This document shows positions 11,252-40,041 of a stretch of DNA of 64,000 bases, piece by piece. The position numbers and the translations under genes are program-made. The notes beneath the pieces are model-generated. The model ran no database searches. It was not told the origin of the DNA and worked only from the letters and a program-made list of their open reading frames with translations. Within the stretch, counting starts at the first letter, position 1. Each line of letters starts with the position of its first letter. Source of the DNA: Symploca sp. SIO3C6 (GTDB taxonomy: Bacteria; Cyanobacteriota; Cyanobacteriia; Cyanobacteriales; Coleofasciculaceae); NCBI GenBank assembly GCA_010692425.1, contig JAAHHJ010000014.1, positions 248,001 to 312,000 on the forward strand, in the 5' to 3' direction.

Positions 11252-11824
11252 ACACTCTCTCTATAATTATCAAAAATATTTTTTTAGAGTACAGTAGATC
11301 ATTCTACAAGAATATCTTGAGATTAATTATCAATAAAACTAATTTTATAATCAATTAATCTTGAAGATTCTTATTGGGCTAGAGTTTAAATCTCTGTTAA
11401 GACTAGCGTTCTCCAGAGCTTTGGAATTGAGGTTATTGGAGATTGAAGCTCTTTATCCGTAGACTTTTAGCCCCTTGACAGCCTATTCAAGCCGAGAGTC
11501 CAATTTTGCTTGATATAACTTTTACTCAACTATATAATATGTTCTAATCCTGATTATGTGTTCTGTTCCCTTTCAAGAAAAATTAGCAATAAAGCTGCTC
11601 AATTCACAATTTTTTAGCTGCTCATTATTGCCATTAATAGTAAATAACTACTTATCTTATCCAAGTTGTGGTAGTTTTCAACTGTTGAAGGCAGGGTTGA
11701 CACAAGCTGATTGCTTCTCTATCGGAATGCTCAACCTGAGTCGAGAGCATCGTCATTCTTTTGTATGTGTTGATCAATCTCTATTTTTATTTTGTCAAAA
11801 TTTAAGTTTTAAGGATAATCAAGC
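11252..11824. promoter_or_regulatory. Divergent exbBD / tonB control region
   Basis: 573 AT-rich bases between divergent exbB and tonB. An ataattat core lies about 12-20 bases upstream of the exbB start. A dyad with arms gattaatt and aattaatc spans 11321-11360. Such AT-rich dyads between iron-uptake genes are where Fur usually binds, but neither matches the Fur consensus well, so this is inference. No convincing gene is seen inside. Confidence 0.35.
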
Positions 11825-13453
11825 ATGAGCATTTCCAGCTTCTGTATAGAGCAGCGTGAGCTTGAACAAGAGGCTCTCAAGAAGTTTCTCGCCATTAGTC
11901 TGGTGGGTTCAGCAGTGCTACATGTGGCGCTAGCCTTCAGCATCAACTGGCTTGCTAAGGAACCGGAATTTGTTAATGAACCGATTGAAATAATTCTTGT
12001 CGAGGAACCAGAGCCGCCACCGGCTCAGCCAAAAGAAGAAAAATTGGAGTCTCCTCCAATTCCTGAGCCTCCTCCAGTTAAACCACCGCAGATCCAGGAG
12101 TTGATTGAAACCAAGATAGCGGAGGCTCCTCAACCACTACCACCGACACCAGTTACACCTCAAAAACCAGTAGCGCCAAAACCACCACCAGTAGTTTCAA
12201 AACCTATCGAGACGAGCAGGCAACCACAGCCCAAGATTAAAACTCCTAATCAACCTGACTTTACCCCTAATGAAACTGCTCCTATCTCACCACCGAAGGC
12301 AATAGCAGCCAATCAGTCGGTACCGTCACGACCAAATCACAATTCTCAACCACTTTCAACTCCACCAGATGTTGAAAGAAAACTCTCTCAAAGCTTGAAT
12401 TCCTCCACTAATTCCCCAGTAACCCCATCACCAGATATCAGCCCCACAGCACCAGAGGAAGTGGCTGTTAATCAGTCGGCACCGCCACGACCAAATCACA
12501 ATTCTCAACCACTTTCAACTCCATCAGATGTGGAGAGAAAACTCTCTCAAAGTTTGAATTCCTCCACTAATTCCCCAGTAACCCAATCAACAGATATCAG
12601 CCCCACAGCACCAGGGGAAGTGGCTGTTAATCAGTCGGCACCGCCACGACCAAATCACAATTCTCAACCACTTTCAACTCCATCAGATGTGGAGAGAAAA
12701 CTCTCTCAAAGTTTCAATTCCTCCACTAATTCCTCAGTGACCCAATCAACAGATGCTAGCCCCACAGCACCAGGGGAAGTGGCTGTTAATCGTTCGGTAC
12801 CCACAAAACCGGCAATGGCTTCTAGTTCACTTGCACCTTCATCAGCAGATTCGAGGCAATTTAGTGATTTTAGCGGTAGTGATTCCTCATCGGTATCACC
12901 AGGTGGCAGTGAAGAGCAAGGTAGTCCTACTTCCCCTGGTGAAGTAGTCGCCGCTAGCTCAGCGCCAGCCAAACCAGAAATTAGAGAAGGTGGTGGTGGT
13001 TTGCTTTGTGTTCGCAGATGTAATCCGAAATATCCCTCTTCACTCAATGGTGAAGAAGGTACCACGATTGTTCGGGTTGTAGTAGATCAAAATGGTAATG
13101 TCGTTGAGACAGAAGTGGCACGGAATAGTGGTAATTCGCAGGTAGATCAAGAAGCGCTTACAGCTGCCAAGAAAATGAGGTTTTCAGCACCAGCAGGTGG
13201 AGGTTTGGTGGCGGTTAGGGTAAATATTAACTTTACGGTGGAAGGCTCTGAGTTTGATCGTCAAGCTCGTGAACGTCAGGAGCAGATGGAACGTGAACGC
13301 TTAGCGCGTGAACGTGAACAGGCACAAGAGGAAGCTCGTCAACGAGCACAAAAAGAAGCTCGTCAAAGGGAAATTCGCCAACAGCAAGAACAGGAAGCTC
13401 GTGAACAAGCCGAATCGGAGGAAGAACTACCACAGCCGACAGCTGTAGAGTAA
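11825..13453 (+). CDS. tonB: TonB-like protein with internal repeats and charged C-terminal tail
   Basis: 542 residues. A single N-terminal anchor (about 18-42, AISLVGSAVLHVALAFSINWLA) is followed by a very long proline-rich spacer (EPEPPPAQP, IPEPPPVKPP) that would span the periplasm. The spacer includes three 53-residue repeats. The TonB C-terminal domain lies at about 395-465, with YPSSLNGEEGTTIVRVVVDQNGNVVETEVARNSGN...LTAAKKMRFSAP. Unusually, about 75 further residues follow, almost all E/R/Q/A (RERQEQMERERLAREREQ), predicted to form a single charged helix. Ordinary TonB ends at the receptor-binding domain. The start is an ATG after a purine-rich stretch (aaggataatcaagc). It energises receptors such as the one at the right edge. 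Confidence 0.88.
   Translation: MSISSFCIEQRELEQEALKKFLAISLVGSAVLHVALAFSINWLAKEPEFVNEPIEIILVEEPEPPPAQPKEEKLESPPIPEPPPVKPPQIQELIETKIAEAPQPLPPTPVTPQKPVAPKPPPVVSKPIETSRQPQPKIKTPNQPDFTPNETAPISPPKAIAANQSVPSRPNHNSQPLSTPPDVERKLSQSLNSSTNSPVTPSPDISPTAPEEVAVNQSAPPRPNHNSQPLSTPSDVERKLSQSLNSSTNSPVTQSTDISPTAPGEVAVNQSAPPRPNHNSQPLSTPSDVERKLSQSFNSSTNSSVTQSTDASPTAPGEVAVNRSVPTKPAMASSSLAPSSADSRQFSDFSGSDSSSVSPGGSEEQGSPTSPGEVVAASSAPAKPEIREGGGGLLCVRRCNPKYPSSLNGEEGTTIVRVVVDQNGNVVETEVARNSGNSQVDQEALTAAKKMRFSAPAGGGLVAVRVNINFTVEGSEFDRQARERQEQMERERLAREREQAQEEARQRAQKEARQREIRQQQEQEAREQAESEEELPQPTAVE
12311..12787 (+). repeat. Three tandem 159-bp in-frame repeats in tonB
   Basis: Units begin at 12311, 12470 and 12629, exactly 159 bases apart, each opening aatcagtcgg; a degenerate fourth start is at 12788. 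Each encodes 53 residues (NQSAPPRPNHNSQPL... to ...TAPGEVAV). Copies 2 and 3 are nearly identical, which points to recent unit duplication and a spacer of variable length. Confidence 0.9.
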
Positions 13454-22023: not shown

Positions 22024-22281
22024 ATGGATATCCCTAAAGCGATGGATGCTCTCAAGACAATACTTGTTGATTTGGGTATCCCTGTTGAGTCAGTTAATAA
22101 AGATACTTTACTGCGCAAGGATCTCCAGCTTGACTCCACCGAGACAGTAGAAATTTCCCTGGGCCTCAAACGTCAACTGGGAGTCAACGTCAAGCTTGAA
22201 GCTAGGGAGGATATGACGCTAGCCCAAGTCTGTAATCTGATTGAGGCAGCAGTGTCTGCCGGCCCCAAGAATGTTGCCTGA
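22024..22281 (+). CDS. Discrete acyl/aryl carrier protein
   Basis: 85 residues starting MDIPKAMDALK; TTG at 22021 directly precedes the ATG. The phosphopantetheine serine is in KDLQLDSTETVEISLGLKRQLGV, the DSx motif with threonine replacing the usual leucine after Ser. The domain is a helical carrier protein of normal length. It overlaps the PPTase gene that follows by 11 bases, and an aryl ligase and salicylate synthase come next, so it most likely carries salicylate as an aryl carrier protein (inference from context). Confidence 0.82.
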   Translation: MDIPKAMDALKTILVDLGIPVESVNKDTLLRKDLQLDSTETVEISLGLKRQLGVNVKLEAREDMTLAQVCNLIEAAVSAGPKNVA

Positions 22282-22666
22282 GCTAGAATCAACTGCTGAA
22301 GTTAAGGGGATCGGTATTGATCTGATACCTATCTCCAGGATTGCCAAATTGATCGACTGCTATGACCACCAAACGTTGAATCTGTTGTTTACTCCCAGCG
22401 AGATCGACCTTTGCCAATCAGCTAGTGATCCCGACCAGTTTTATGCAGTGTGCTTTGCCACCAAGGAAGCTGTGGGTAAAGCTCTAGGTACTGGCTTAGC
22501 TGGCATTGGTTGGAATGAAATTGAAGCCAAGATTATACAAGGTAGATTGACCATTGAAGTCTCTGGGGAAGCAAGTGTTCAGGCCAAAAAACGTGGTGTG
22601 CAAGCATGGATAGCCACTTGGTGCCATTGGGGTCAACAGGTTTTGGTTCATGTCATTGCTCATTAA
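22271..22666 (+). CDS. Holo-ACP synthase (AcpS-type PPTase)
   Basis: 131 residues from the ATG at 22271, preferred over an upstream start at 22241 because GIGIDLIPISRI then falls near the N-terminus as in AcpS. The Mg2+-binding Asp is in GIDL and the Glu in FATKEAVGKALGTG; both are present, so the enzyme looks active. It transfers phosphopantetheine from CoA to carrier proteins. Overlapping the ACP gene, it is probably dedicated to it; whether it also serves the NRPS/PKS carriers is unknown (those usually need a Sfp-type enzyme). Confidence 0.85.
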   Translation: MLPELESTAEVKGIGIDLIPISRIAKLIDCYDHQTLNLLFTPSEIDLCQSASDPDQFYAVCFATKEAVGKALGTGLAGIGWNEIEAKIIQGRLTIEVSGEASVQAKKRGVQAWIATWCHWGQQVLVHVIAH

Positions 22667-22691
22667 AGCCTAAGTCTAAAAGGAAAATGGG

Positions 22692-24230
22692 ATGAAAAGT
22701 ATTTCTGAACAGTTACCTAGTATTTTCAACATTGCAGCTTACTTTTTTGAAGGCCATCAGGCAGAGAAATATAGCGAGAGAGTAGCTTTTTATCATCGGG
22801 ATCAGACCTATACTTATGCCCAAGTAAGCAGTTCAGTAAAACGCACTGCTCGATTACTATCCGAGGTGGGCTTGGAGCGGGAAAATCGTCTGGCGATTTT
22901 GTTACCAGATACTCCAGAGTTTGTTTTTGCCTTCTGGGGTACAATCTGGTTAGGTGCTGTGCCAGTTCCGATTAATAATGCTTGCAGTTGTGATGACATT
23001 CAGTATATTCTGCAAGACTCACGGGCCAGGATTTTGCTGACTACTAGAGAGTGGCAAGAGAAACTAGCACCTATTGAGTCTCCGTTTTTGAAGCACGTTC
23101 TGCTTTCCGATGGAGAAAACCCATTTCTATCCCTGCTTAATCAGCAGGACGAACAGCTAGTTTTTGCCGAAACTTCTCGTGATGAACCTGCTTTTTGGCT
23201 TTATACCTCCGGCAGTACCGGTCGGCCAAAAGGTGTAGTTCATCTCCACCAAAGTATAGTAATCTCTGTAGAGTACTACGGTAAAGCCACTCTTGGTTTA
23301 CACAAAGATGACATTACCTATTCAGTTGCCAATATGGCTTTTGCCTATGGTCTAGGGAATAGCCTATATATGCCAATGGCCGTTGGAGGTGCTGCTGTAC
23401 TGTCTAATGCCAACAACGCTTTTGAGATCATCTCTGATATTGAGCGTTACCGGCCCACAGTTTTGTTTGGTATACCAAGTGTCTATGCTAGCCTTCTCGC
23501 TGTGCATGAGATCTCTCCTTTAGATGTTTCTTCTCTACGCTTATGTGTATCTGCAGCTGAGCAGCTACCTAAAAGTATCTGGCACAAGTGGCTGAAGACT
23601 TATAACCATGAAATTTGTGAAGGGATTGGAACTACTGAGTTTTTACATATTTTTCTCTCCAACCGACTAGGAGGATGTAAACCAGGTAGTTCCGGTTACC
23701 CAGTTCCTGGTTATGATGTTCAGGTTGTAGATGACAATGGTGTTCCCTGTAATCCTGGTGAAATTTGCAATCTTCAAGTTAGTGGAGAGAGCCTGATGCT
23801 GGGATACTGGAACCGACTTCAAGAGACGCGGAAAGCTATCTACGGTCAAACTATGCGGACTGGGGATAAGTATATGCGTGATGCTGACGGCTACTTCAAA
23901 TTTATGGGGCGTAAAGATGATCTGTTTAAAATTAATGGCCAGTGGATATCACCTTTGGAAATAGAGGATGTTTTACATCAACATCCTCAAGTTCTTGAAG
24001 TTGCCGTGATCCCAGAGTCTAATCAGGGTGAACAGTTAACTCAAATTGTTGCTTATGTAAGCCTTAAGCCAGAACAAAAACCGTCTTCGGAAATAGAAGA
24101 TAACATTCGTAAATTTTCTAAAGAGCGATTACCCCATTTTAAGGCTCCAAAAAAAATTCACTTTGTGGAAAACTTGCCGCGTACATCAACAGGAAAAATT
24201 CACCGCAAGTTATTAGTTAAATCTATCTAA
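22692..24230 (+). CDS. Aryl-acid AMP ligase (benzoate-CoA ligase-like), probable salicylate activator
   Basis: 512 residues of the ANL superfamily. The P-loop FWLYTSGSTGRPKGVVHLHQ, the mid motif EGIGTTEFLHIFLSNR, the hinge region GDKYMRDADGYFKFMGRKDDLFKINGQWISPLEIE and the catalytic lysine in RTSTGKIHRKLL are all intact. The layout is closest to benzoate/4-hydroxybenzoate-CoA ligases rather than EntE/YbtE (family impression). Next to salicylate synthase and a free ACP, the likely reaction is salicylate + ATP to salicyl-AMP, then transfer to the carrier at 22024. True CoA ligation is the alternative. Confidence 0.82.
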   Translation: MKSISEQLPSIFNIAAYFFEGHQAEKYSERVAFYHRDQTYTYAQVSSSVKRTARLLSEVGLERENRLAILLPDTPEFVFAFWGTIWLGAVPVPINNACSCDDIQYILQDSRARILLTTREWQEKLAPIESPFLKHVLLSDGENPFLSLLNQQDEQLVFAETSRDEPAFWLYTSGSTGRPKGVVHLHQSIVISVEYYGKATLGLHKDDITYSVANMAFAYGLGNSLYMPMAVGGAAVLSNANNAFEIISDIERYRPTVLFGIPSVYASLLAVHEISPLDVSSLRLCVSAAEQLPKSIWHKWLKTYNHEICEGIGTTEFLHIFLSNRLGGCKPGSSGYPVPGYDVQVVDDNGVPCNPGEICNLQVSGESLMLGYWNRLQETRKAIYGQTMRTGDKYMRDADGYFKFMGRKDDLFKINGQWISPLEIEDVLHQHPQVLEVAVIPESNQGEQLTQIVAYVSLKPEQKPSSEIEDNIRKFSKERLPHFKAPKKIHFVENLPRTSTGKIHRKLLVKSI

Positions 24231-24280
24231 TAGCTTACACAGTAATCGTTGAGTAATTATTCAAGATAGGAAAAAAAATA

Positions 24281-25609
24281 ATGGTAGTAGCTTTAAAATC
24301 AACACCAACAATTAAGTATCAAGAAACCTTTCTGACTGGACGAAGAAATCCCATAGTCGTTTTACAGAATCTCTTGCAAGACGGGGTTTTTAATAATTAT
24401 GTTATGTATGAAGGAAAAGGTGAGGTTCGTATCGCTGGTAATGAGCTAGCAAAGGTGTCTGTCAATCAGGCTTGTGTCTCGCTCAAAGGTATAGGTAATT
24501 CCTATTCTGAGCCAGTTAGTGACCCCTTTCAACAAGTAGATAATTTACTAGCATCTTTACCAATTGAAAATTGGACAGCCTATGGTTATGTCGGCTTTGA
24601 TATTGCTGGATTTTACTCTGCATACTCCAAAGCAATTGAGCAAGAACTGCTTTATTTTTTAATTCCAGAAACCGAACTACGTTTTACAGAGGATGGAGTT
24701 TACGTCAGAAGTACTAGGTCATTAGATCGAATCCGAAAAACATTATTGATTGACCATCAAATTCCAGATTATAGATCAGCTTCTATAGAATTTAATTTTG
24801 CTGATCGCGACATGTATCAGAGCCGCATTGAAACTTTAATTGAGGCAATTAAAAATGACGAATTACAGAAAGCGATTATTTCCCGTCCTCTGAAATTCAC
24901 TGGTGATTTAGACCTGCTTGGAACTTACGTAGTTGGGGCAAAAGTCAATAATTCAGCACGTTCCTATTGTCTAAATATCGGAGATGTGCGTGCAGTTGGC
25001 TTTAGTCCTGAAACTCTCATGGAAGTAGATCAATATCGGTCAGTTGTGACTAATCCCTTAGCAGGAACTAGACCTCGTGGCGAAAACAAACAAGAGGATA
25101 AGCGCTTATATGATGAACTGTTTAACAATGCTAAAGAGGTTAAAGAACATGCACTTTCTGTTTGGTTAGCACAAAGTGAGATTAGCTCGATTTGCTTGCC
25201 AGGAACTGTTCAAATTTTTAATTTCATGGAGGTAAAAAAATACCGTACCGTACAACACTTATCATCAAGAGTTGGTGGTGTTCTCAAGCCCGGAAATACT
25301 TCTTGGGATGCTTTGAAGGTATTGTTTCCAGGAATTACTGTTTCTGGGATTGATAAACAACAAGCTCTGGAATGGATTGAGCGTCTTGAGGATGAGCCAA
25401 GAGGGATTTATGCCGGTGGCATTGGTTGGATAGACAGCAGGGGCACAGCAGATATAGCTATCTCCCTGCGCTCTGTTTACCAATACGGTAACAATATTTA
25501 CCTCAATGCTGGAGCTGGTATCATTGCTGAATCAATTCCCCAAAAAGAATATATAGAGTCGGTAAACAAGATGAACACCATGCTAACAAATGTGGTGTTG
25601 AAATCATAA
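24281..25609 (+). CDS. Salicylate synthase (Irp9/MbtI/YbtS type)
   Basis: 442 residues of the chorismate-utilising (anthranilate synthase component I-like) family; size fits Irp9 and MbtI, which convert chorismate through isochorismate to salicylate in a single Mg2+-dependent enzyme. Visible landmarks: QKAIISRPLKFTG, YCLNIGDVRAVGFSPETLMEV, the NPLAGTRPRGENKQED block, ELFNNAKEVKEHALSV, the VQHLSSRVGGVL segment and PRGIYAGGIGWID. No separate isochorismatase or pyruvate lyase gene is nearby, which favours a complete salicylate synthase. It provides the starter acid of the pathway. Isochorismate synthase alone is less likely. Confidence 0.85.
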   Translation: MVVALKSTPTIKYQETFLTGRRNPIVVLQNLLQDGVFNNYVMYEGKGEVRIAGNELAKVSVNQACVSLKGIGNSYSEPVSDPFQQVDNLLASLPIENWTAYGYVGFDIAGFYSAYSKAIEQELLYFLIPETELRFTEDGVYVRSTRSLDRIRKTLLIDHQIPDYRSASIEFNFADRDMYQSRIETLIEAIKNDELQKAIISRPLKFTGDLDLLGTYVVGAKVNNSARSYCLNIGDVRAVGFSPETLMEVDQYRSVVTNPLAGTRPRGENKQEDKRLYDELFNNAKEVKEHALSVWLAQSEISSICLPGTVQIFNFMEVKKYRTVQHLSSRVGGVLKPGNTSWDALKVLFPGITVSGIDKQQALEWIERLEDEPRGIYAGGIGWIDSRGTADIAISLRSVYQYGNNIYLNAGAGIIAESIPQKEYIESVNKMNTMLTNVVLKS

Positions 25610-25621
25610 ATAATAGTAGCA

Positions 25622-26098
25622 ATGATGTCTGGGATTCCAATTGGGAGTTCAACTTTAGAAGTTGATGAGAGCGCTCTTCAGGGTTCACCTATTTCTGAGT
25701 CTGACTCCCTCAAAATTATTGGTCATGGTCTTGAGATTGTCGAAACTACGTACATCAAGGAACTCGTAGAACAATTAGGGGAGTCTTTTGAAAGGAGGTA
25801 TTTCACAGTTAGTGAGTGCAATGCTTATGAGTCTGGAGACAAGCGTATTCAATATCTAGCTGGTCGTTTTGCGGCTAAAAAAGCAATACTCAACACCCTA
25901 GGGAAAGAAGGGGGTAAAGATACTTCTTTTCTGGATATTGAAGTCAAACGATTGCCCACAGGTCAACCTTCAGTATTACTACATGGTCAATGCCTAGAAA
26001 TTGCGACAAAATTCGGTATTACCAAATGGTTACTGAGTATTAGTCATACATTTTCCTATGCTGCAGCTAGTGTATTTGCCTTAGGCAGTAAAGGTTAG
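25622..26098 (+). CDS. AcpS-like protein with altered metal site
   Basis: 158 residues. The C-terminal ~125 align with AcpS: IIGHGLEIVETTYIKELVEQLG matches the GIGTDIVEI strand but with Glu for the Mg2+-binding Asp, and GRFAAKKAILNTLGK matches FAxKEAxxKALG but with Lys for the second metal ligand Glu. The KRLPTGQPSVLLHG and WLLSISHTFSYAAASVFAL strands of AcpS are kept. With both acidic ligands changed it is probably not an ordinary PPTase; a structural or inhibitory role, or specialised chemistry, is possible. It lies 12 bases after salicylate synthase, in the starter operon. Confidence 0.7.
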   Translation: MMSGIPIGSSTLEVDESALQGSPISESDSLKIIGHGLEIVETTYIKELVEQLGESFERRYFTVSECNAYESGDKRIQYLAGRFAAKKAILNTLGKEGGKDTSFLDIEVKRLPTGQPSVLLHGQCLEIATKFGITKWLLSISHTFSYAAASVFALGSKG

Positions 26099-26228
26099 CG
26101 ATTCTAGAACGATTGGCTTTACTACTAGCTAAAAAAACAAGACAAAACCCTTTGAGTTGAACTTCAGAGAACATGTAAATGGTATTCGTTTGGGGATAAT
26201 CTGAGCAGAAATTTAGCTTCTGAAAATC

Positions 26229-27758
26229 ATGACAAATCGACCAGTAGGTATTCGCTCTCTTGCAGTCAGCTTTCCAAGCACAATACGTACCAATGATTAT
26301 TGGCAAAATAAGTTTCCAGATTTGTTTGGTGGGGCCAAGCAAAAAAGAGCGAGATTGTCTAGGAAAACTACATCTATTTCTGACAATAATGGGCTTGGTA
26401 TTTGGTCACAAGAAGTAGCACCCTATCTGTCAGACCCCTTTCGAGGTAATGTTGAGCGAAGAGTGCTGGCTCCAGATGAATCATCATTGAAACTGGAATA
26501 TCAGGCAGCCAAGGATGCCCTGAAAGCGGCAAAAATATCCCCTGAAGAAGTAGATTTAATGATTGTTGCCTCGCTCTTGTCTGAACAAATGGGAGCTGGT
26601 AATGCTGCTTACCTCGCCCGTCAATTAAAACTAAATGCACCAGCCTGGAATTTAGAATCCACCTGTTCAAGTGCCTTGGTGGCGCTTCAGAATGCTCATG
26701 CCTTGATCCAAATTGGAGAATACCGTAATGTGTTGGTAGTTGTCTCCCAAATAGGTTCTAAGTCTGTTGATGAGCAGGATACTCTTTCGTTATCAATGGG
26801 GGATGGTGCTGGAGCGTTTGTAGTTGACAGGCTCAAACCTAACCAAGGTATTCTTGGAAGCAAAATTATTCATACTAACGCTACTTGTGAGGCTTATTTA
26901 CATGAACTAGTGACAGATGATCAAGGTAAGCCTAGGATGCGTACTAGAACAGGTGAAAATGCCAATATGCTGGCTGAAACAGCTGTTGATTCTGTTCGGA
27001 GTTGCTGCCAAGGTGCGCTCAAAGCTGCTGGTGTTAGCCTTGAAGAAATCGACTTTTTCGCTTTTAATACTCCGACTGCCTGGTATGCCAGCGTCTGTAC
27101 GCGAGCACTGGACATTAATCCTGAGCGCACAATCAATCTCTACCCTCGGTATGCTAATATTGGATCTGTCCTTCCAATTGCCAATCTCTACCACGCGGCA
27201 CAAGCGGGTAAAATTAGCGAAAACGACCTGGTACTCGTCTACACTAATGGTGCGGCAGCCACGGCAGCAGCGATGGTAATGCGCTGGGGAGAGGTGACGC
27301 TCGGAAAAGCACCTGCACCCCCCATTAGTATTACTGAGCAGGATGAGAGAATTGAGCAATTTGGAAAAGGATCTATCTCCAAAGAGCAATCCCCAGCTAC
27401 TAAATCAAGTTCTATTTCCCGAGAAGCACTCTTTGCTGCCGAACCAGAGAAACGACAGCAAATGTTGGAGGTTTATCTTTTAGAATGGCTAGTTAGTTCA
27501 CTTCAGATCACCTTAGCAGAAATTAGCCTTCACCATCCTCTCGCTTTATTGCTTGACTCTTTAATGGCATTTGAACTCAGGAGAAGAATTGAGAATGATT
27601 TAGGAGTGCTGGTACCCGTAGAAAGATTTTTTGGTGAAAATAATATAGCTAAACTAACTAAGTTACTACTAAATCAATTAGCCTTAACGAATCTAGTTGT
27701 ATCAGAACCTGTAGTTGAAGTTAAGGAAGAAGAAGAAAGGGAAAAAATAAGTTTGTAA
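26229..27758 (+). CDS. KASIII-like acyltransferase fused to a C-terminal carrier domain
   Basis: 509 residues. Residues 1-360 have the thiolase fold of FabH-like enzymes: nucleophile C146 in ESTCSSALVAL, glycine-rich MGDGAGAFVVD, and the Asn position in YANIGSVLPIANL. The region where FabH has its catalytic His (PHQAN) reads FNTPTAWY (N280-T281-P282-T283), so no His is visible there. Residues about 410-495 form an ACP with S444 in LLLDSLMAFEL. KASIII-like enzymes such as ChlB3 and ChlB6 move 6-methylsalicylyl groups between carriers rather than condensing (established knowledge). Here it could pass salicylate from the free ACP to its own carrier for the first NRPS. Confidence 0.78.
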   Translation: MTNRPVGIRSLAVSFPSTIRTNDYWQNKFPDLFGGAKQKRARLSRKTTSISDNNGLGIWSQEVAPYLSDPFRGNVERRVLAPDESSLKLEYQAAKDALKAAKISPEEVDLMIVASLLSEQMGAGNAAYLARQLKLNAPAWNLESTCSSALVALQNAHALIQIGEYRNVLVVVSQIGSKSVDEQDTLSLSMGDGAGAFVVDRLKPNQGILGSKIIHTNATCEAYLHELVTDDQGKPRMRTRTGENANMLAETAVDSVRSCCQGALKAAGVSLEEIDFFAFNTPTAWYASVCTRALDINPERTINLYPRYANIGSVLPIANLYHAAQAGKISENDLVLVYTNGAAATAAAMVMRWGEVTLGKAPAPPISITEQDERIEQFGKGSISKEQSPATKSSSISREALFAAEPEKRQQMLEVYLLEWLVSSLQITLAEISLHHPLALLLDSLMAFELRRRIENDLGVLVPVERFFGENNIAKLTKLLLNQLALTNLVVSEPVVEVKEEEEREKISL

Positions 27759-27882: not shown

Positions 27883-30800
27883 ATGGATCTACATTTACTG
27901 TTAAACGATCTTTCCAACAAAGGTATAAAACTGTCTGCTAATGGAAGTTTCCTAAATGTTGATGCCCCTAAAGGGTTGATGACAACAGAACTGCGGGAAT
28001 CATTGGTCGAGCATAAAGCAGAAATTCTAATGTTGCTACACCAGAGCAGCATCAGTGCTAGTGATACTTCTCTACCAGCAGTTGTGCCAGCGCCAGAGTC
28101 ACGCTACAAACCTTTTCCCCTTACTGATATGCAGCATGCCTTTTGGGTAGGCCGCAGCGGGGTATTTGAGCTAGGCAATGTAGCTAATCATGGTTACTAC
28201 GAGATTGAAGGTTATGATTTAGATTTAGAACAACTCAATTGTGCACTGCAAAAAGTAATTGAACGTCACGATATGCTCAGGGCTGTGGTGTTACCTGATG
28301 GTCAACAGCAAGTTCTTGAACAAGTACCTCCCTATCAAATTGAAGTCTTAGATTTGAGGGGAAAAGATGAGCAAACCGTAACTTCAGAGATTGAAGTGAT
28401 TCGCCAGCGCATGTCCCATCAGGTATTGCCAGCTGACCAATGGCCATTATTCGAGTTTAGGGCAACATGTTTGGATGGGGAACGTGTTCGGCTGCATGTT
28501 AGCTACGATTTGCAGGTGTTCGACGCTTGGAGTCTGTTTCGTCTATTTGATGAATGGTTTCAACTTTACAAAAATCCTCAGGTAGAATTACAGCCACTAG
28601 AACTTTCATTTCGGGATTATGTCTTAGCAGAGCAAGCTTTGCAAGAGACTCAATTGTACAAGCGATCGCAACAATATTGGTTAAACCGCTTAGACAACTT
28701 ACCACCGGCTCCAGAGTTGCCTCTAGATAAGCGTCCTAGTGAACTCAAACAGCACATATGCAAGCGTTATGATGGGCGTTTAGAGCCAACAGAATGGCAG
28801 AGGTTAAAGCAGCGAGCAGCTCAAGTTGGTTTAACCCCTTCTGGAATTTTACTTGCTGCTTTTGCAGAAATCTTGACAGTTTGGAGCAAGAGTCCTCGGT
28901 TTACAATCAGCCTTGCCCTGTTTAATCGTTTACCACTACACCCGCAAGTTAATGAAATTTTGGGAGATTTCATCTCAGCAACGCTACTAACAGTAGACAA
29001 TTCTATCTTTGAACCATTTAGTAATCGCGCTCTTCGTATACAGCAGCAACTGTGGCAGGACTTAGAACATCGTTACTTTAGCGGAGTGCGAGTGATCCGA
29101 GAACTAGCTCATCAAAAAGGTACAGCTCCCAGCGCTATCCCTGTTGTTTTCACCAGCACCCTTGGTTTAAGTTCACTCGGTCAAGAAACATCAACCTTCA
29201 GTCATTTTGGAGAGTTAGTCTATGGCATCAGCCAAGCTTCCCAGGCTTGGATGGATGTCCAAGTTTGGGAGGAAAAAGGGGAATTGACATTCAACTGGGA
29301 TGTGGTTGAGGAGCTATTCCCTGAAGGTCTGATCCAAGAAATGTTTGAGACTTATTGCCGTTTCCTCAAACAACTGGCAACTTCGGAGGCTGCTTGGCTT
29401 GAGACTAACCGACAATTGCTCCCTCCTGCCCAATTAGCACAGCGATGTCTAGTCAATGCTACAGTCGCACCAGTTTCTGAGCAAATGCTGCACACTTTGT
29501 TTGCAGCACAAGTGCAAGTTAGAGGGAATGAGCATGCTCTCATTTCATCCCAGCGCAGCCTGAGCTATCAGGAGTTATATGAACTTTCAAATCAGGTTGC
29601 TCATAAGCTTAGGTCATTGGGGACAACTCCCAACCAACTGGTAGCGGTGGTTATGGAGAAAGGTTGGGAACAGATTGTAGCAGTTATGGGCATTTTAACT
29701 TCCGGTGCTGCCTACGTCCCCATAGATCCGGGTTTACCTCAAGAGCGAAGGGAGTATATTCTCAACAATAGTGAAGTTGGTATTGTTTTGACCCAATCTT
29801 GGCTTAACGAGAAGCTTTCTTGGCCAGAAGGGGTTGTACGGCTGTGCATAAATGACCAACATCTATCAAATGAGAGTAAGGAACCGCTAGAGCCGATTCA
29901 GACACCTGATGATTTAGCTTACCTCATCTACACCTCTGGTTCCACAGGTGTTCCGAAAGGGGTAATGATTAATCATCGTGGTCCTGTCAACACGATCATT
30001 GATATTAACCAACGCTTTGGTGTTAGCCCAACTGACCGAGTTTTAGCTCTGTCTTCCCTTAGTTTTGACTTGTCAGTTTACGATATCTTTGGCACCTTAG
30101 CTGCTGGGGGAACTATTATTATCCCCAAAGCCTCGTGCGATCGCGAACCTGCTCACTGGGCTCAATTGATACGACAGCATCAAGTTACCATTTGGAACTC
30201 AGTACCAGCCTTAATGCAAATGATGGTTGACTATGCTGTAGATGACCCTCAAATTCTGGCTTCTTTGCGCTTGGTCTTACTCAGTGGAGATTGGCTGCCA
30301 CTAACTTTGCCTACTCAAATTAAAGCCCAGGTTAAAGAGGTTGAAGTAATCAGTTTGGGAGGTGCTACTGAAGCCTCCATCTGGTCTATTCTTTATCCGA
30401 TTAAAGCAATTGATCCGGCTTGGAAAAGTATTCCCTATGGTTGTCCCATGGCTAACCAGCGTTTCTATGTACTCAATGAGTTACTAGAACCAAGTCCAGT
30501 GTGGGTTCCAGGGCAGCTTTACATTGGCGGAATTGGGCTGGCGATGGGTTACTGGCAGCAGGAAGCAAAAACTACAGCTAGTTTTATTACCCATCCTTGT
30601 ACAGGAGAGCGATTGTACCGGACAGGTGATTTGGGTCGTTATCTTCCTGATGGGAATATTGAATTTATTGGTCGAGAAGACTTCCAAGTCAAGATTGGTG
30701 GATATCGCATTGAGTTAGGGGAAATTGAAGCAGTGTTGGGACAGTATCCTACTGTGGATAAAGCAGTAGTTGCAGTAGCAGGTAAACAACTGAGCGAAAA

Positions 30801-31350
30801 GCGTGTCGTAGCCTATGTTGTTCCTTACCAGGAAATCTCTTCTGATCAGTTGCGGAGTTTCCTGCATGAAAAATTACCAGAATATATGATACCGTCAGCT
30901 TTCGTATTTCTGGAAGTTTTACCGTTATCATCAAATGGAAAAGTAGACCGTCGTGCGCTCCCTAATCCAGAAATTTTACTTCGGGAATTGGAAGTTAATT
31001 ATGTAGCACCCCAGAATGATCTAGAGGAAACTATTGCTACTGTGTGGCAACAAGTGTTGGATTTAGAAAAAGTGGGAGTAAATAATAACTTTTTTGAAAT
31101 CGGTGGCAACTCATTACTAATTACAAAAATTTACAGTCAACTTAAAAATGTTTTCCCTAATGAGGTAGAATGTATATCGTTAGTTGATTTATTTAAATAT
31201 CCAACAATTAGTGCTCTGGCTAAATACTTAAACCAAGCTCAGCAAGCAGCATCACCAGAGCTACGAAATTCTGAATTGATTAAACAATTGGCAGCAGGCA
31301 AAAATCGCCTAAGACAAAAATTTAAAAAATCAAAAGCAGTTAATTTGTAG
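27883..31350 (+). CDS. NRPS module: TubC docking - Cy - A(Cys) - PCP
   Basis: 1155 residues. 1-55 is a TubC-type docking domain (IKLSANGSFLNVDAPKG). About 75-500 is a heterocyclisation domain: LTDMQHAFWVGR at the start and the Cy hallmark D209-LQVF-D214-AW-S217 instead of HHxxxDG. The adenylation domain (about 530-960) keeps YTSGSTGVPKG, SLGGATEASIW, TGD and NGKVDRR. Reading the ten specificity positions (D729, L730, Y733, N, L, S, L, I, W, K) gives DLYNLSLIWK, the standard cysteine code. The PCP serine is S1077 (IGGNSL). It should condense an aryl starter with Cys and cyclise to a hydroxyphenyl-thiazoline, as in yersiniabactin and pyochelin. Confidence 0.93.
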   Translation: MDLHLLLNDLSNKGIKLSANGSFLNVDAPKGLMTTELRESLVEHKAEILMLLHQSSISASDTSLPAVVPAPESRYKPFPLTDMQHAFWVGRSGVFELGNVANHGYYEIEGYDLDLEQLNCALQKVIERHDMLRAVVLPDGQQQVLEQVPPYQIEVLDLRGKDEQTVTSEIEVIRQRMSHQVLPADQWPLFEFRATCLDGERVRLHVSYDLQVFDAWSLFRLFDEWFQLYKNPQVELQPLELSFRDYVLAEQALQETQLYKRSQQYWLNRLDNLPPAPELPLDKRPSELKQHICKRYDGRLEPTEWQRLKQRAAQVGLTPSGILLAAFAEILTVWSKSPRFTISLALFNRLPLHPQVNEILGDFISATLLTVDNSIFEPFSNRALRIQQQLWQDLEHRYFSGVRVIRELAHQKGTAPSAIPVVFTSTLGLSSLGQETSTFSHFGELVYGISQASQAWMDVQVWEEKGELTFNWDVVEELFPEGLIQEMFETYCRFLKQLATSEAAWLETNRQLLPPAQLAQRCLVNATVAPVSEQMLHTLFAAQVQVRGNEHALISSQRSLSYQELYELSNQVAHKLRSLGTTPNQLVAVVMEKGWEQIVAVMGILTSGAAYVPIDPGLPQERREYILNNSEVGIVLTQSWLNEKLSWPEGVVRLCINDQHLSNESKEPLEPIQTPDDLAYLIYTSGSTGVPKGVMINHRGPVNTIIDINQRFGVSPTDRVLALSSLSFDLSVYDIFGTLAAGGTIIIPKASCDREPAHWAQLIRQHQVTIWNSVPALMQMMVDYAVDDPQILASLRLVLLSGDWLPLTLPTQIKAQVKEVEVISLGGATEASIWSILYPIKAIDPAWKSIPYGCPMANQRFYVLNELLEPSPVWVPGQLYIGGIGLAMGYWQQEAKTTASFITHPCTGERLYRTGDLGRYLPDGNIEFIGREDFQVKIGGYRIELGEIEAVLGQYPTVDKAVVAVAGKQLSEKRVVAYVVPYQEISSDQLRSFLHEKLPEYMIPSAFVFLEVLPLSSNGKVDRRALPNPEILLRELEVNYVAPQNDLEETIATVWQQVLDLEKVGVNNNFFEIGGNSLLITKIYSQLKNVFPNEVECISLVDLFKYPTISALAKYLNQAQQAASPELRNSELIKQLAAGKNRLRQKFKKSKAVNL

Positions 31351-36243: not shown

Positions 36244-37653
36244 ATGAAAACACAAAATATCCAAGATATCTACGAACTCTCTGCGATACAGCATGGCATT
36301 CTATTTCACTGTTTATATGCTCCCGAATCAGAATTCTATTTGGTTCAGACAACTTTTGCCTTACGTGGTGAATTAAACTTGATTGCTTTTGATCGCGCCT
36401 GGCAGCAAGTGGTGGCTCGGCACGCAAGTTTACGTACCAGTTTTTATTGGGAAGATATTAACAAACCACTACAAGTTGTGCATAAGCAAGTAAAAATACC
36501 CATAGAGCAACAAGATTGGCGGGGATTCGATCCAGTCGAACAACAAAAGCTATTAGAGTCTTTTCTGGAGCGCGATCGCCAGCAGGGCTTTGATTTGTCC
36601 CAAGAATGCTTGATGCGAATAACTTTACTCCGTCTAACTGCTCATTCTTACAAATTCATCCTGACCGGGCACTTTATCAACGCCGATGGTTGGTCATCAT
36701 CGATTATTATTAATAATTTCTTGCAACTTTACGAAGCATTTTGTCAGGCTAAAGAGGTGTCTTTAGCAGCTGCTACTCCCTTTAGAAAGTACATTACCTG
36801 GTTGCAACGACAGGATTTATCTAAAGGCAAGGTGTTCTGGCAGCAGGCACTAAAGGGACTAAAAGCACCTACTATTCTAGCCAATTTGTATGCTAACAAC
36901 TTTTCCAGCCAGGTAAAAACACATGATCATCAAAGAATCTTTCTATCGGAGATAAAAACAGCAGCACTAATGTCCTTTACACGACAGCATCAGATAACGC
37001 TGAACACACTCATTCTGGGAGCTTGGGCTTGGCTTCTGAGTCGATACAGTGGTGAAAAAAAAGTGGTCTATGGGTGTACTACTTTCGGCCGTCCAGTAGA
37101 TATCGTAGGAATCGATTCAATGGTGGGGAACATGGTAAACAGCTTGCCCGTATGGGTCGAAGTTGATGATCAGCAGCTTCTACTGCCTTGGCTCAAGCAG
37201 TTTCAACAGCAACTGCTTGAAATGCGTCAGTATGAATACGTTCCGCTGGTAGAGATTCAAGAGTGTACTGAAATACCACAAAATGTTCCTCTTTTCGAGA
37301 GCTTAGTAGTGTTTGAAAAATTACCACTGTCTTCGCAGTGGTCTACTCTTAAAAGTTATGAGGGGCTAGAAATGGAGGTAGCTGATATTTGGTACAAGAC
37401 AAACTATCCCCTAAATATAGTGGTTTATCCCTCTGATAAATTGATACTCGAAATCGCTCACCATTGTCACCTTTTTGATGCTGCTACAGTTACTGGTATG
37501 CTTCAGCATTTGGAGACATTACTCCAAGGCATGGTAGCTAATCCTGAAGTGCGTCTCAAAGACTTATCTTTGTTAACACCAACTCAGCAGCAGTTCAGAC
37601 TAATGTTGGAAAAAGAAGCGACATTTGATTTTGATTTTGCTTTGTGTAGCTAA
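36244..37653 (+). CDS. Stand-alone NRPS condensation-domain protein with altered active site
   Basis: 469 residues, a full-length C domain and nothing else. The opening DIYELSAIQHGILFHCLYAPES is the C1 motif of LCL-type domains that normally follow a carrier within the same chain. The C3 motif HHxxxDG reads H143-F144-INA-D148-G149: the second, catalytic histidine is phenylalanine (DNA cac-ttt at 36670-36675). Other landmarks such as VVARHASLRTSF, YGCTTFGRP and MVGNMVNSLPV are kept. Either it is a docking/scaffold or ester-forming relic, or catalysis uses other residues. It follows PKS 1 by 84 bases and precedes the Dab genes. Confidence 0.88.
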   Translation: MKTQNIQDIYELSAIQHGILFHCLYAPESEFYLVQTTFALRGELNLIAFDRAWQQVVARHASLRTSFYWEDINKPLQVVHKQVKIPIEQQDWRGFDPVEQQKLLESFLERDRQQGFDLSQECLMRITLLRLTAHSYKFILTGHFINADGWSSSIIINNFLQLYEAFCQAKEVSLAAATPFRKYITWLQRQDLSKGKVFWQQALKGLKAPTILANLYANNFSSQVKTHDHQRIFLSEIKTAALMSFTRQHQITLNTLILGAWAWLLSRYSGEKKVVYGCTTFGRPVDIVGIDSMVGNMVNSLPVWVEVDDQQLLLPWLKQFQQQLLEMRQYEYVPLVEIQECTEIPQNVPLFESLVVFEKLPLSSQWSTLKSYEGLEMEVADIWYKTNYPLNIVVYPSDKLILEIAHHCHLFDAATVTGMLQHLETLLQGMVANPEVRLKDLSLLTPTQQQFRLMLEKEATFDFDFALCS

Positions 37654-37786
37654 GTAGGTAGCTGAGATAAACAAAGCTAGTCAAATCAATATAAAAGTAT
37701 CTTCATGTATTGATTATTCCAGTTTTGAGTTAATTTACTTAAAACAAAGTATAAAGTATAATGATTAAATCAAAGGAAAGAAGTTT

Positions 37787-38680
37787 ATGATAGCTACATT
37801 TTCAGAAATTGAAAGGTGTTATAAACTTTCAAGCAGAGAATTTCAATCGAATTATGTTGAAAAAGCAAAACCTGTAATCATTACAGGACTAATAAAAGAC
37901 TGGAGTTGCTATAGAAAATGGTCGTTGGAATATTTTTCAAAGATTACTCCTGAACTTAAGATATATGTCAAATCATTTAAAAATAATACAATTCAATTAA
38001 ACAACTTTACTTTGGAAGAATATACCAATATCTTGGAAAAATTTGAAATAACCAAGAAAAGTAAATCCAATATTGATTTGCCTCCATATTGTCATGATCT
38101 ACCGCTCTTTAGCTTGATTCCTTCACTAATAAAAGATGTTCAACCATTTCCACTAAATTATTTACCGGAATGGTATTGGCACAAATGGTGGCGTCATTGT
38201 CAATTCTTTCTAGGAGCTTCTAGTAGCCTTACACCATTACATTTTGACTGTCTTCTGACCAACAATCTTTTCTTTCAAATTTCTGGACGTAAAAGATTTA
38301 CTCTAATCATGGCTAATGATGCTGAATATTGCTATCGGCACGGCTGGCGTTGGTTTATGGTTGATCCTGAAAATCCAGATTTAGAGAAATATCCTCAATA
38401 CAAAAGAGTCAACCCAATTACGTTTATTGTGAATCCCGGAGACATTTTATATATGCCTCCTGGCACCTTGCATCATGTTAGAAGCCTAGATATGTCGGTT
38501 TCTTTTAATATAGATTGGCATACAAAAAAAAGCTCATTGAATAGTCTAGCATCTGTTTTTAGAGGTATGCCACCCAAAAATTTATACTATAACTTTTTGT
38601 TGACAATGGGTTTAGGATTAAAAGTTCCACAATCAATTATTTTTCCTTTTTATAAATCCTATCTCAATTATGTTTCTTAA
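37787..38680 (+). CDS. JmjC/cupin_8-type Fe(II)/2-oxoglutarate oxygenase
   Basis: 297 residues with the double-stranded beta-helix metal triad: H152-x-D154 in TPLHFDCLLTNNLFFQISGRKRF and the distal His in MPPGTLHHVRSLD (H229 or H230). KPVIITGLIKDWSCYRKWSLEYF is the N-terminal signature of FIH-like cupin_8 proteins. Such enzymes hydroxylate amino-acid side chains using Fe(II) and 2-oxoglutarate. Located between a free C domain and a diaminobutyrate aminotransferase, it may hydroxylate the amino acid held on the next NRPS; a beta-hydroxylated residue would give an extra metal ligand (inference). Codon use is markedly AT-rich compared with the PKS/NRPS genes. Ribosome site aaaggaaag precedes the ATG. 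Confidence 0.82.
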   Translation: MIATFSEIERCYKLSSREFQSNYVEKAKPVIITGLIKDWSCYRKWSLEYFSKITPELKIYVKSFKNNTIQLNNFTLEEYTNILEKFEITKKSKSNIDLPPYCHDLPLFSLIPSLIKDVQPFPLNYLPEWYWHKWWRHCQFFLGASSSLTPLHFDCLLTNNLFFQISGRKRFTLIMANDAEYCYRHGWRWFMVDPENPDLEKYPQYKRVNPITFIVNPGDILYMPPGTLHHVRSLDMSVSFNIDWHTKKSSLNSLASVFRGMPPKNLYYNFLLTMGLGLKVPQSIIFPFYKSYLNYVS

Positions 38681-38787
38681 TTAATTTACTAAGACAAAAA
38701 TAAAGACAACAATTCCAATAAAAAACTAATCAAAATTATTCTTATCATTAGCTTTGTTTGGAATTCTAATAAAAGGAGATCAATACA

Positions 38788-40041
38788 GTGAACGTTTTTG
38801 AAAAAAATGAGTCAAATGTCAGAAGTTACTGTCGCAGTTTCCCCGCTGTATTCCATAGATCTAAAGGTTCTATTGTGTACTCTGATTCAGGGAAAGAATA
38901 TATAGACTTCCTTGCTGGCGCAGGTGCTTTGAATTATGGGCATAATAATGACTATATAAAACAAGAGGTAATATTATATCTAGAGGCTGATGCTATTACC
39001 CATGGTCTAGATTTTTACACATCTGCTAAAGAAAGGTTTCTGGCAAAGTTTTTAGAAAATGTGTTAACTCCAAAATCCCTGGACTATCGAATACAATTTT
39101 GTGGTCCAACAGGAACAAATGCTGTTGAAGCAGCTTTAAAGTTAGCAAGAAAAATCAAAAAAAGAACAGGAATATTCTCCTTCATGGGAGCCTATCATGG
39201 AATGACATTGGGGAGTTTATCAGTTACTGGCAATACTACTATACGCTCAGGAATATGGGGAACATCAAATAACGTAACATTTATGCCTTACCCCTATGGA
39301 TTTATGGAAACGATTGACACGATAGAATATATAGAGTCAGTACTCAACGATGTCAATTCCGGAATTGAAAAACCAGCAGCAATCATATTTGAAACAGTAC
39401 AAGCTGAAGGGGGAGTGATTGTTGCGCCAATTGAATGGATGCAGAAACTTAGAGAGTTGTGTTATCAGCATGATATTCTATTAATTTGTGATGATATTCA
39501 AGTTGGTTGTGGGAGAACTGGTCCGTTCTTTTCTTTTGAAAGAGCAAATATAGTTCCTGATATGGTGGTACTCTCAAAATCTATAAGTGGTTACGGTTTT
39601 CCGATGTCACTATTGTTGATTAAACCAGAGTTAGATATTTGGGAACCTGCTGAGCATACTGGTACTTTTAGAGGTAATCAACTGGCATTTGTGGGTGGAA
39701 CAGCAGCTTTAGAATATAGAGAAAATATCCAACTTGAAAAGGATGTAAAAGTTAAAGAGTCTTTTTTAAAGGCTTTTCTAGATGAAGAAATACAATCAAT
39801 TAGTGCAGAAATAACTATACGTGGAATTGGTATGATTTGGGGGATTGATATTACTAATTTTGGAGGTTCAGCTTTAGCTAAAAAGATAGCTTCACGCTGT
39901 TTTGAATTGGGCTTAATAGTTGAAAGAGTTGGAAGAAATGATACTGTTATCAAAATTTTGCCTCCTTTAACAATTAATATGACTGTTTTACAAAAAGGGT
40001 GCTCAATCATAAAACAAGCTTTTAATGAATGTTTAGTGTAG
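38788..40041 (+). CDS. L-2,4-diaminobutyrate aminotransferase (EctB/Dat type)
   Basis: 417 residues, class III PLP aminotransferase. GTG start preceded by AGGAG (aaaaggagatcaatacag). Landmarks: FLAGAGALNYGHNN, FCGPTGTNAVEAALKLAR, FSFMGAYHGMTLGSLSVTGN, LICDDIQVGCGRTGPFFSFE and the PLP lysine K264 in VVLSKSISGYG. FLAGAGALNYGHNN with GAYHGMT is specific for diaminobutyrate-2-oxoglutarate transaminases, which make Dab from aspartate semialdehyde. No ectoine genes (ectA, ectC) are near, so Dab is more likely a building block for the adjacent NRPS than an osmolyte precursor. AT-rich like its upstream neighbour. Confidence 0.9.
   Translation: MNVFEKNESNVRSYCRSFPAVFHRSKGSIVYSDSGKEYIDFLAGAGALNYGHNNDYIKQEVILYLEADAITHGLDFYTSAKERFLAKFLENVLTPKSLDYRIQFCGPTGTNAVEAALKLARKIKKRTGIFSFMGAYHGMTLGSLSVTGNTTIRSGIWGTSNNVTFMPYPYGFMETIDTIEYIESVLNDVNSGIEKPAAIIFETVQAEGGVIVAPIEWMQKLRELCYQHDILLICDDIQVGCGRTGPFFSFERANIVPDMVVLSKSISGYGFPMSLLLIKPELDIWEPAEHTGTFRGNQLAFVGGTAALEYRENIQLEKDVKVKESFLKAFLDEEIQSISAEITIRGIGMIWGIDITNFGGSALAKKIASRCFELGLIVERVGRNDTVIKILPPLTINMTVLQKGCSIIKQAFNECLV

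Follow-up and report, generated by a model that had tools for sequence, protein, structure and literature searches.

A discrete salicylate starter cassette with a candidate KASIII-ACP adaptor and two complementary AcpS-type genes in a cyanobacterial NRPS cluster

A compact run of seven genes on the plus strand is found in a 64,000-nucleotide stretch of the Symploca sp. SIO3C6 genome (contig JAAHHJ010000014.1, positions 248,001 to 312,000; hereafter the window). In order, these encode a free acyl carrier protein (ACP), an AcpS-like protein (AcpS1), a benzoate-CoA-ligase-family enzyme, a salicylate synthase, a second AcpS-like protein (AcpS2), a KASIII protein with its own C-terminal ACP (KASIII-ACP), and a nonribosomal peptide synthetase (NRPS) composed of a TubC docking domain and heterocyclization (Cy), adenylation (A) and peptidyl carrier protein (PCP) domains (Table 1). 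We think it probable that they form a discrete salicylate starter cassette in which KASIII-ACP acts as a non-extending salicyl adaptor to the NRPS and the paired AcpS genes activate the free ACP. All of the locus, domain and residue results are computations on sequence, and catalysis, docking and phosphopantetheinyl transferase (PPTase) activity are predictions. The cassette itself is already in print, and a proposed role for KASIII-ACP and a possible split PPTase are what is added here.

The cassette is predicted to serve a hybrid NRPS/polyketide synthase (PKS) pathway, probably for a metallophore. Salicylate synthase would make salicylate, which the ligase would activate and load onto the free ACP. 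The KASIII domain would take the salicyl group onto Cys146 and hand it to its own C-terminal ACP without decarboxylation or extension, and the C-terminal motif of the same protein would bind TubC, so that the KASIII-borne ACP meets the first NRPS at its Cy domain, where salicyl would be joined to cysteine. AcpS1 and AcpS2 most likely activate the free ACP jointly, and the DSL-type ACP on KASIII may be served by the Sfp-type enzyme of the genome.

The KASIII protein was matched in 19 of 386 cyanobacterial genomes (E 1e-60); ten of the 19 carry a complete KASIII-ACP, and a salicylate synthase, found in 13 of the 386 genomes, is present in every one of the ten. A scan of species genomes, with F[AV]FNTPTA as one of its two seed patterns, gave 50 further loci, and the working set after clean-up consists of 41 non-redundant KASIII-ACP open reading frames (ORFs). 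Removed before counting were L025, L027 and L035 (duplicate records of L052, L059 and L074), L094 (742 aa, with a C-terminal part that does not match the tail pattern described below), and L077 and L088, truncated copies under the KASIII-ACP length limit. An ACP, a ligase and a salicylate synthase lie near KASIII-ACP in the fetched stretch at 33 of the 41 loci, a co-occurrence far beyond chance, and three others have salicylate synthase alone, one of them (L031) with ligase and ACP 8-10 kb off. These counts, together with the domain and TIGR scores, bear out an earlier, sequence-only reading of this DNA that described a discrete starter-loading operon. Its statement that no aryl carrier domain is fused to the first NRPS also holds, as the domain scan of that protein shows no carrier domain upstream of the condensation domain.

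Pfam and an AlphaFold model (mean pLDDT 82) agree on a thiolase fold of the KASIII type. The predicted fold is FabH/PqsBC/PqsD-like, with Z reaching 40.3 for residues 1-359, and the nearest solved sequence is FabH 2ebd (E 1.2e-30). Cys146, within ESTCSSALVA, and Asn310 (YANIG) are conserved in 41/41 KASIII-ACPs. The FabH His column, where Aquifex FabH has the His of its HQAN motif, is occupied by Asn280 (within FNTPTAWY), and among the 41 proteins it is Asn in 40 and Ser in one; the Cys-His-Asn triad of FabH is replaced by a Cys-Asn-Asn site. The sequence-only reading had noted FNTPTAWY at this position, and the site is indeed unlike that of classical decarboxylative condensation. Its ChlB3/ChlB6-type label is not supported: ChlB3 and CerJ have a Cys-His-Asp triad (PMC9573744), which is absent here, and the sequence match to CerJ is weak (E 2.5e-6, from sequence matches alone). 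The structure prediction that it had called for upheld a KASIII fold; CerJ and ChlB3 are not among the 50 structural matches listed, a result that excludes nothing. ChlB3 and CerJ are alike to the window protein in using a KASIII fold to move an acyl group (in ChlB3, 6-methylsalicylyl to an ACP), whereas their triad and distant sequence set them apart, and a fused ACP goes unmentioned where the source describes them (PMC9573744). FabH, PqsD and PqsBC are among the nearest folds and sequences, with the classical His absent from the window KASIII; PqsD holds anthranilate covalently, according to the title of PDB entry 3h77. The KASIII domain may act like ChlB3 without its defining triad, in which case its catalysis must differ.

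Several observations weigh against a shuttling role. CerJ H295N, the same change as Asn280, is inactive, with malonyl transfer lost (PMC9573744), and because this change is present here the transfer step needs its own test. No invariant His that might replace it was found elsewhere in the KASIII-ACP alignment. Asn at the His site also occurs in 23 of 30 other rows (among which are the truncated KASIII-ACP L077, the distant KASIII L078_0 and the 742 aa L094), and is, on this alignment, no mark of ACP-to-ACP shuttling. The Asn count is moreover biased by the origin of most loci in the F[AV]FNTPTA-seeded scan; Asn occupies the column in 9/9 KASIII-ACPs from the protein search alone, and in 8/13 standalone KASIII homologues from a motif-free search, the rest having Thr, Tyr or His. 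Five of the 41 KASIII-ACP loci have no ACP, ligase or salicylate synthase in the stretch examined, including L066, for which 10 kb upstream was searched, and L033 shows no NRPS match within 15.5 kb.

The relationship of KASIII-ACP to the NRPS is illustrated by two loci, L043 (1578 aa) and L087 (1587 aa), in which KASIII-ACP-Cy-A-PCP is encoded by a single ORF; the KASIII-borne ACP therefore faces this Cy domain. A TubC match and a short tail are both absent from these fusions. The tail pattern [EQ]x0-1[ILVFM]x[LIF] ends 39/39 unfused KASIII-ACPs, and TubC is present in 37/37 visible downstream NRPS partners, 35 identified by tblastn and two (L067 and L093) by eye. The pattern was devised post hoc, with the tails already seen; among control proteins it occurs in 0/35 free ACPs, 0/35 ligases, 0/39 salicylate synthases and 0/27 AcpS2 proteins, and in 4/28 AcpS1 proteins and 1/29 standalone KASIII proteins. 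The predicted donor carrier ends in a short C-terminal linear motif and the predicted acceptor begins with TubC_N; a docking pair of known structure has the five C-terminal tail residues bound to the docking domain as an added strand (PMC6195595). Anatomy and docking partner are well supported by these comparisons, which favor the earlier suggestion of TubC as the acceptor of this ACP. Its further suggestion that KASIII-ACP is a go-between gains from the fusions, the tail, the TubC partners and the invariant Cys146, with acyl transfer itself remaining a prediction.

Published clusters contain closely similar arrangements, and the idea is not as new as the sequence-only reading implied. In the fat cluster, responsible for fatuamide A, FatB-FatH comprise an ACP, a PPTase, a member of the benzoate-CoA-ligase family, a salicylate synthase, an AcpS-like protein, a KAS III and Cy-A(Cys)-PCP (PMC11877528). 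The gene order is that of the window, the ligase is 1539 nt in both, and the KAS III genes are 1524 nt (fat) and 1530 nt (window), whereas FatC is 459 nt compared with 396 nt for AcpS1, and the downstream modules differ. FatG and FatF receive one main-text mention each, in Table 2 of that paper (PMC11877528). The salicyl group of fatuamide A is bonded directly to the thiazoline (PMC11877528), and no chain extension is therefore expected at this step. SalS, a salicylyl CoA/PCP ligase and a 'KACP, KSIII acyl carrier protein' are listed together in a figure legend to the anachelin cluster (PMC4247773); the likeness lies in this legend, and the first residue in the published anachelin proposal is serine (PMC6562677). 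Neither the fat nor the anachelin account assigns a reaction to the KASIII protein where the clusters are described (PMC11877528, PMC4247773), and literature proposing a KASIII shuttle or a heterodimeric PPTase was not found in a search that most subscription papers lay outside.

An instructive comparison is offered by gloPKS of Gloeocapsa PCC 7428, a salicylate-primed type II PKS whose ligase loads salicylate onto an engineered ACP in vitro and whose KS-CLF uses salicyl-ACP (PMC11744666). Loci L113 and L114 resemble such a type II PKS cluster, with ACP-AcpS1-ligase-salicylate synthase accompanied by ketosynthase (KS) and cyclase genes; the ACP (DST site), AcpS1, ligase and salicylate synthase are held in common with the window, and KASIII-ACP and AcpS2 are absent from both loci. 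In gloPKS the carrier feeds KS-CLF directly, whereas in the window KASIII-ACP is predicted to stand between. L113 and L114 lack KASIII-ACP, which thus turns up where an NRPS takes over the starter. Retention of both ACP and ligase at these two loci, together with the analogy to the glo ligase, agrees with the sequence-only reading that the benzoate-CoA-ligase-like enzyme loads a free ACP.

Other accounts of the KASIII protein can be envisaged. It could be a scaffold or gate, with the ligase loading the KASIII-fused ACP directly and the free ACP reserved for another step; loss of the catalytic His and the two fusions in which the KASIII-borne ACP faces the Cy domain are compatible with this, but Cys146 is kept in 41/41 proteins, the free ACP is still paired with the ligase in the two salicylate-type II PKS-like clusters that have no KASIII-ACP, and such an ACP, in engineered form, is a substrate of the glo ligase (PMC11744666), so that we consider this account unlikely. 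The ligase belongs to a CoA-ligase family, and FabH enzymes classically use acyl-CoA. It could thus make salicyl-CoA, from which KASIII would load its own ACP, leaving the free ACP as a reservoir or as a halogenation platform, a use that five loci with halogenase-like genes beside KASIII-ACP would fit. Against this, the free ACP adjoins the ligase, or is separated from it by AcpS1 alone, both in the complete loci and in L113 and L114, and the comparable glo ligase yields salicyl-ACP in vitro (PMC11744666); we rate this possibility marginally below the scaffold. By far the least credible alternative is FabH-like condensation of salicyl with malonyl-ACP. The FabH fold and the retained Cys and Asn would allow it, but His is replaced by Asn in 40/41 proteins, a Cy domain directly follows in the fused forms, and in fatuamide A the thiazoline follows salicyl with no C2 unit intervening (PMC11877528).

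The two AcpS-type genes, absent from the sequence-only reading, are the odder and more surprising part of the locus. AcpS1 retains the Mg-side residues – Asp in 26/26 (2 gaps), Glu in 28/28 and Lys in 28/28 – and has lost TGxP and SxSH, with the His present in 7/28. AcpS2 retains the first Ser and the His of SxSH (27/27) and the Gly and Pro of TGxP (27/27), and has Asp in 5/26 (1 gap) and Glu in 6/27, with both in 3/27 (L050, L054 and L059). In AcpS, a trimer, one subunit supplies the Asp and Glu and its neighbor the SxSH, as the order of motifs also indicates. Three PF01648 genes are present in the window genome in all, namely AcpS1, AcpS2 and the Sfp-type L118, in which GKP and NLSHS precede GIDLE and KEAYLK; the AcpS2 set followed by the AcpS1 set is thus on one polypeptide in L118 and on two genes in the cassette. 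In the Sfp-like human PPTase, Ser110 and His111 bind CoA, Asp129 and Glu181 bind Mg, mutation of Asp129 or Glu181 costs orders of magnitude, and the hinge is given as Glu133, which puts Asp129 at the domain boundary; the active site of AcpS lies between subunits (PMC2148441). The pattern of complementary residue loss in the two AcpS proteins is like that of the Sfp halves and is suggestive of a split PPTase. We tentatively propose, as a reading with a fair amount in its favor and as much still to be said against it, that they function solely as a heteromer, each having lost the opposite half of the interface active site, a two-gene counterpart of Sfp reached separately, dedicated to the free and mostly DST-type ACP, while the Cys-Asn-Asn KASIII-ACP moves salicyl to an NRPS-docking DSL carrier.

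Both AcpS genes are present in 25 of the 33 complete loci, neither in seven, and AcpS1 alone in one. They are not an obligate pair within a locus, as L033, L113 and L114 carry AcpS1 without a neighboring AcpS2. Each of the eight AcpS1 genomes has exactly one further AcpS-family gene (profile A3, E 1e-6). In five of them this is AcpS2, and G005 and G008 have an intact AcpS; the gene of G070 is degenerate, with KQA for KEA, no GID motif, and SGQP and IAHT kept. This is modest evidence, since the AcpS family is found in at least 105 of the 386 genomes, with at most ten candidates scored per genome. Of the genomes that have the cassette but not the pair, G336 shows a further AcpS-family match, and G129, G191 and G338 are not among the matches. 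In a weakly supported tree of these short proteins, in which two of 14 'intact' rows (L135 and L150) failed the motif check, L123 and L126, both intact single genes, fall with AcpS2 (SH-aLRT 93) and AcpS1 forms a separate long-branch group (94); given this grouping, an origin of the pair by simple tandem duplication is not favored. L123 and L126, the closest intact single AcpS genes found, have all motifs, and the AcpS2 losses therefore look derived. The dN/dS of AcpS2 is 0.18-0.62 in four pairs and 2.7 in L064/L065, the latter on very few differences, and selection is, by this estimate, relaxed yet purifying in four of five pairs. We note that L180 (8190-8567) and L181 (8281-8658) each hold an intact single AcpS gene, with 54% and 52% identity, respectively, to the matched part of AcpS2; the surrounding island is conserved and includes an ACP-like gene and others named by eye.

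A split enzyme must be set beside a competing account, in our estimate somewhat less probable, in which each of the two proteins is a PPTase in its own right, dedicated to one carrier, or AcpS2 is a decaying relic. AcpS1 mostly adjoins the free ACP, and AcpS2 mostly KASIII-ACP, as separate enzymes might, and both the three loci with AcpS1 but no neighboring AcpS2 and the three AcpS2 copies with Asp and Glu intact point the same way; the raised dN/dS of AcpS2 would suit either a separate enzyme or a relic. However, most AcpS2 proteins lack the Mg-side Asp, the Glu or both, which are essential in group II PPTases (PMC4103896), and the invariance of the SxSH Ser and His and the TGxP Gly and Pro in AcpS2 tells against both forms of this account. 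The uniform DSL site of the KASIII-borne ACP (41/41) and the presence of another AcpS-family gene in each of three AcpS1-only genomes likewise argue against separate enzymes.

The carrier served by each PPTase may be reflected in the residue following the ACP Ser, which is Thr in 25/38 free ACPs and Leu in 41/41 KASIII-borne ACPs. Thr35 and Gln31 of gloACP block Sfp, the double mutant being ~95% converted and T35L alone ~5% (PMC11744666); gloACP is activated by neither Sfp, AcpS nor its cognate PPTase (PMC11744666, PMC12391972), and the glo authors state that they are unable to judge if their PPTase had folded. Among our free ACPs, Thr is present in 25/30 rows with AcpS1 versus 0/8 without, where Val or Ile is found (Fisher p 2.6e-5). 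The ligase and salicylate synthase tree resolves these into two independent AcpS1 losses (paired test p 0.5), and the covariation is for this reason suggestive only. It is further weakened by five rows with AcpS1 that have Val or Leu, and by Gln at the other glo position being kept in 5/8 rows without AcpS1. The link from the AcpS1 of L113 and L114 to the glo PPTase would follow by analogy between similar-looking clusters.

If these proposals are correct, KASIII-ACP, which recurs in cyanobacterial salicylate clusters, would be an adaptor from a type II style starter carrier to an NRPS, and could be used for engineering starter units. A split PPTase would explain why the glo PPTase fails alone on gloACP, as well as the failures of Sfp and AcpS, and AcpS1 and AcpS2 would offer a natural model for how the two-domain Sfp layout arises from AcpS. 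Their complementary loss is directly testable.

Table 1. Coordinates and assignments of the cassette genes and domains in the window, and of halogenase-like genes at related loci (locus number precedes the coordinates).
Feature	Coordinates	Strand	Observation or prediction
Free ACP	22024..22281	+	LQLDST site; PF00550 22.2 bits, cut-off 20.8; aligned with 39 further rows, duplicates included; predicted first salicylate carrier
AcpS-like 1	22271..22666	+	Asp of GID, Glu of KEA and next Lys kept; without TGxP and SxSH
Benzoate-CoA-ligase-family enzyme	22692..24230	+	TIGR02262 478.5 bits, cut-off 375.25; predicted salicylate:ACP (or CoA) ligase
Salicylate synthase	24281..25609	+	TIGR03494 338.3 bits, cut-off 325.15
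AcpS-like 2	25622..26098	+	TGxP and SISH kept; in the window copy, Mg-side Asp is Glu and Glu is Lys
KASIII-ACP, 509 aa	26229..27758	+	ACP_syn_III, ACP_syn_III_C; PP-binding at residues 421-480
KASIII domain	26229..27308	+	Cys146; Asn280 replacing His; Asn310
C-terminal ACP of KASIII protein	27420..27701	+	Ser444 in LLLDSLMAF; ends set by eye on predicted model
C-terminal tail EREKISL	27735..27755	+	Proposed short linear motif for TubC (beta-hairpin docking) domain
First NRPS	27883..31350	+	TubC_N, Condensation, AMP-binding, PP-binding
TubC docking domain, first NRPS	27883..28047	+	PF18563 E 9.6e-16
Condensation, adenylation and carrier domains, first NRPS	28048..31350	+	Heterocyclization type by position and analogy with FatH
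Halogenase-like gene	L048:11643-13289		PF04820 E 2e-15; sole copy scanned
Halogenase-like genes	L049:8291-9973, 11573-13225		By eye; in L049 also on the other side of KASIII-ACP
Halogenase-like genes	L051:11558-13213; L064:11601-13271; L090:11478-12953		By eye

Variation between KASIII-ACP and the NRPS is seen at several loci. A FAD-dependent halogenase-like gene occupies this position in L048, L049, L051, L064 and L090, which suggests halogenation of carrier-bound salicyl; no such gene is present in the window, despite 89-96% identity between the cassette proteins of the window and of L048. At the same spot L068 carries a gene for a PhyH-type dioxygenase (L068:11834-12808, E 1.3e-38). Just upstream of the intact KASIII-ACP of L049 are a broken KASIII fragment (L049:7446-8162) and then a halogenase-like gene, as a local duplication would leave. 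KASIII homologues that have no ACP adjoin a thiamine diphosphate (ThDP) enzyme in L074 (4821-11578), L037 (7418-10325) and L091 (7725-11086), mostly with the His-to-Asn change, and L074 additionally encodes an aromatic amino acid lyase, a chorismate mutase and an AMP ligase. Such a grouping has the look of a different aromatic acyl pathway, present also in the myxobacterium Minicystis (L091). Genome G278 has a second salicylate synthase (L116:7857-10100), adjoining a methyltransferase-like gene identified by eye, with no other cassette matches in 20 kb.

Within the window, the nearest PDB neighbors of the ligase are anthranilate- and benzoate-CoA ligases, and the adenylation pocket of the first NRPS, read by eye, is DLYNLSLIWK, which we take to be a cysteine code. 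TonB-like, FecCD, ABC and MFS genes are also present, which fits a metallophore. Inside the assembly line, positions 36244-40041 encode a condensation domain that stands alone, a Cupin_8/JmjC-type protein and, with a TIGR02407 score of 577.5 bits, an EctB-like diaminobutyrate aminotransferase; a residue that is hydroxylated or of diaminobutyrate type is hinted at by these genes. Downstream of the cluster lies an IS605 OrfB-type transposase (positions 61298-62590; PF01385 E 2.2e-17).

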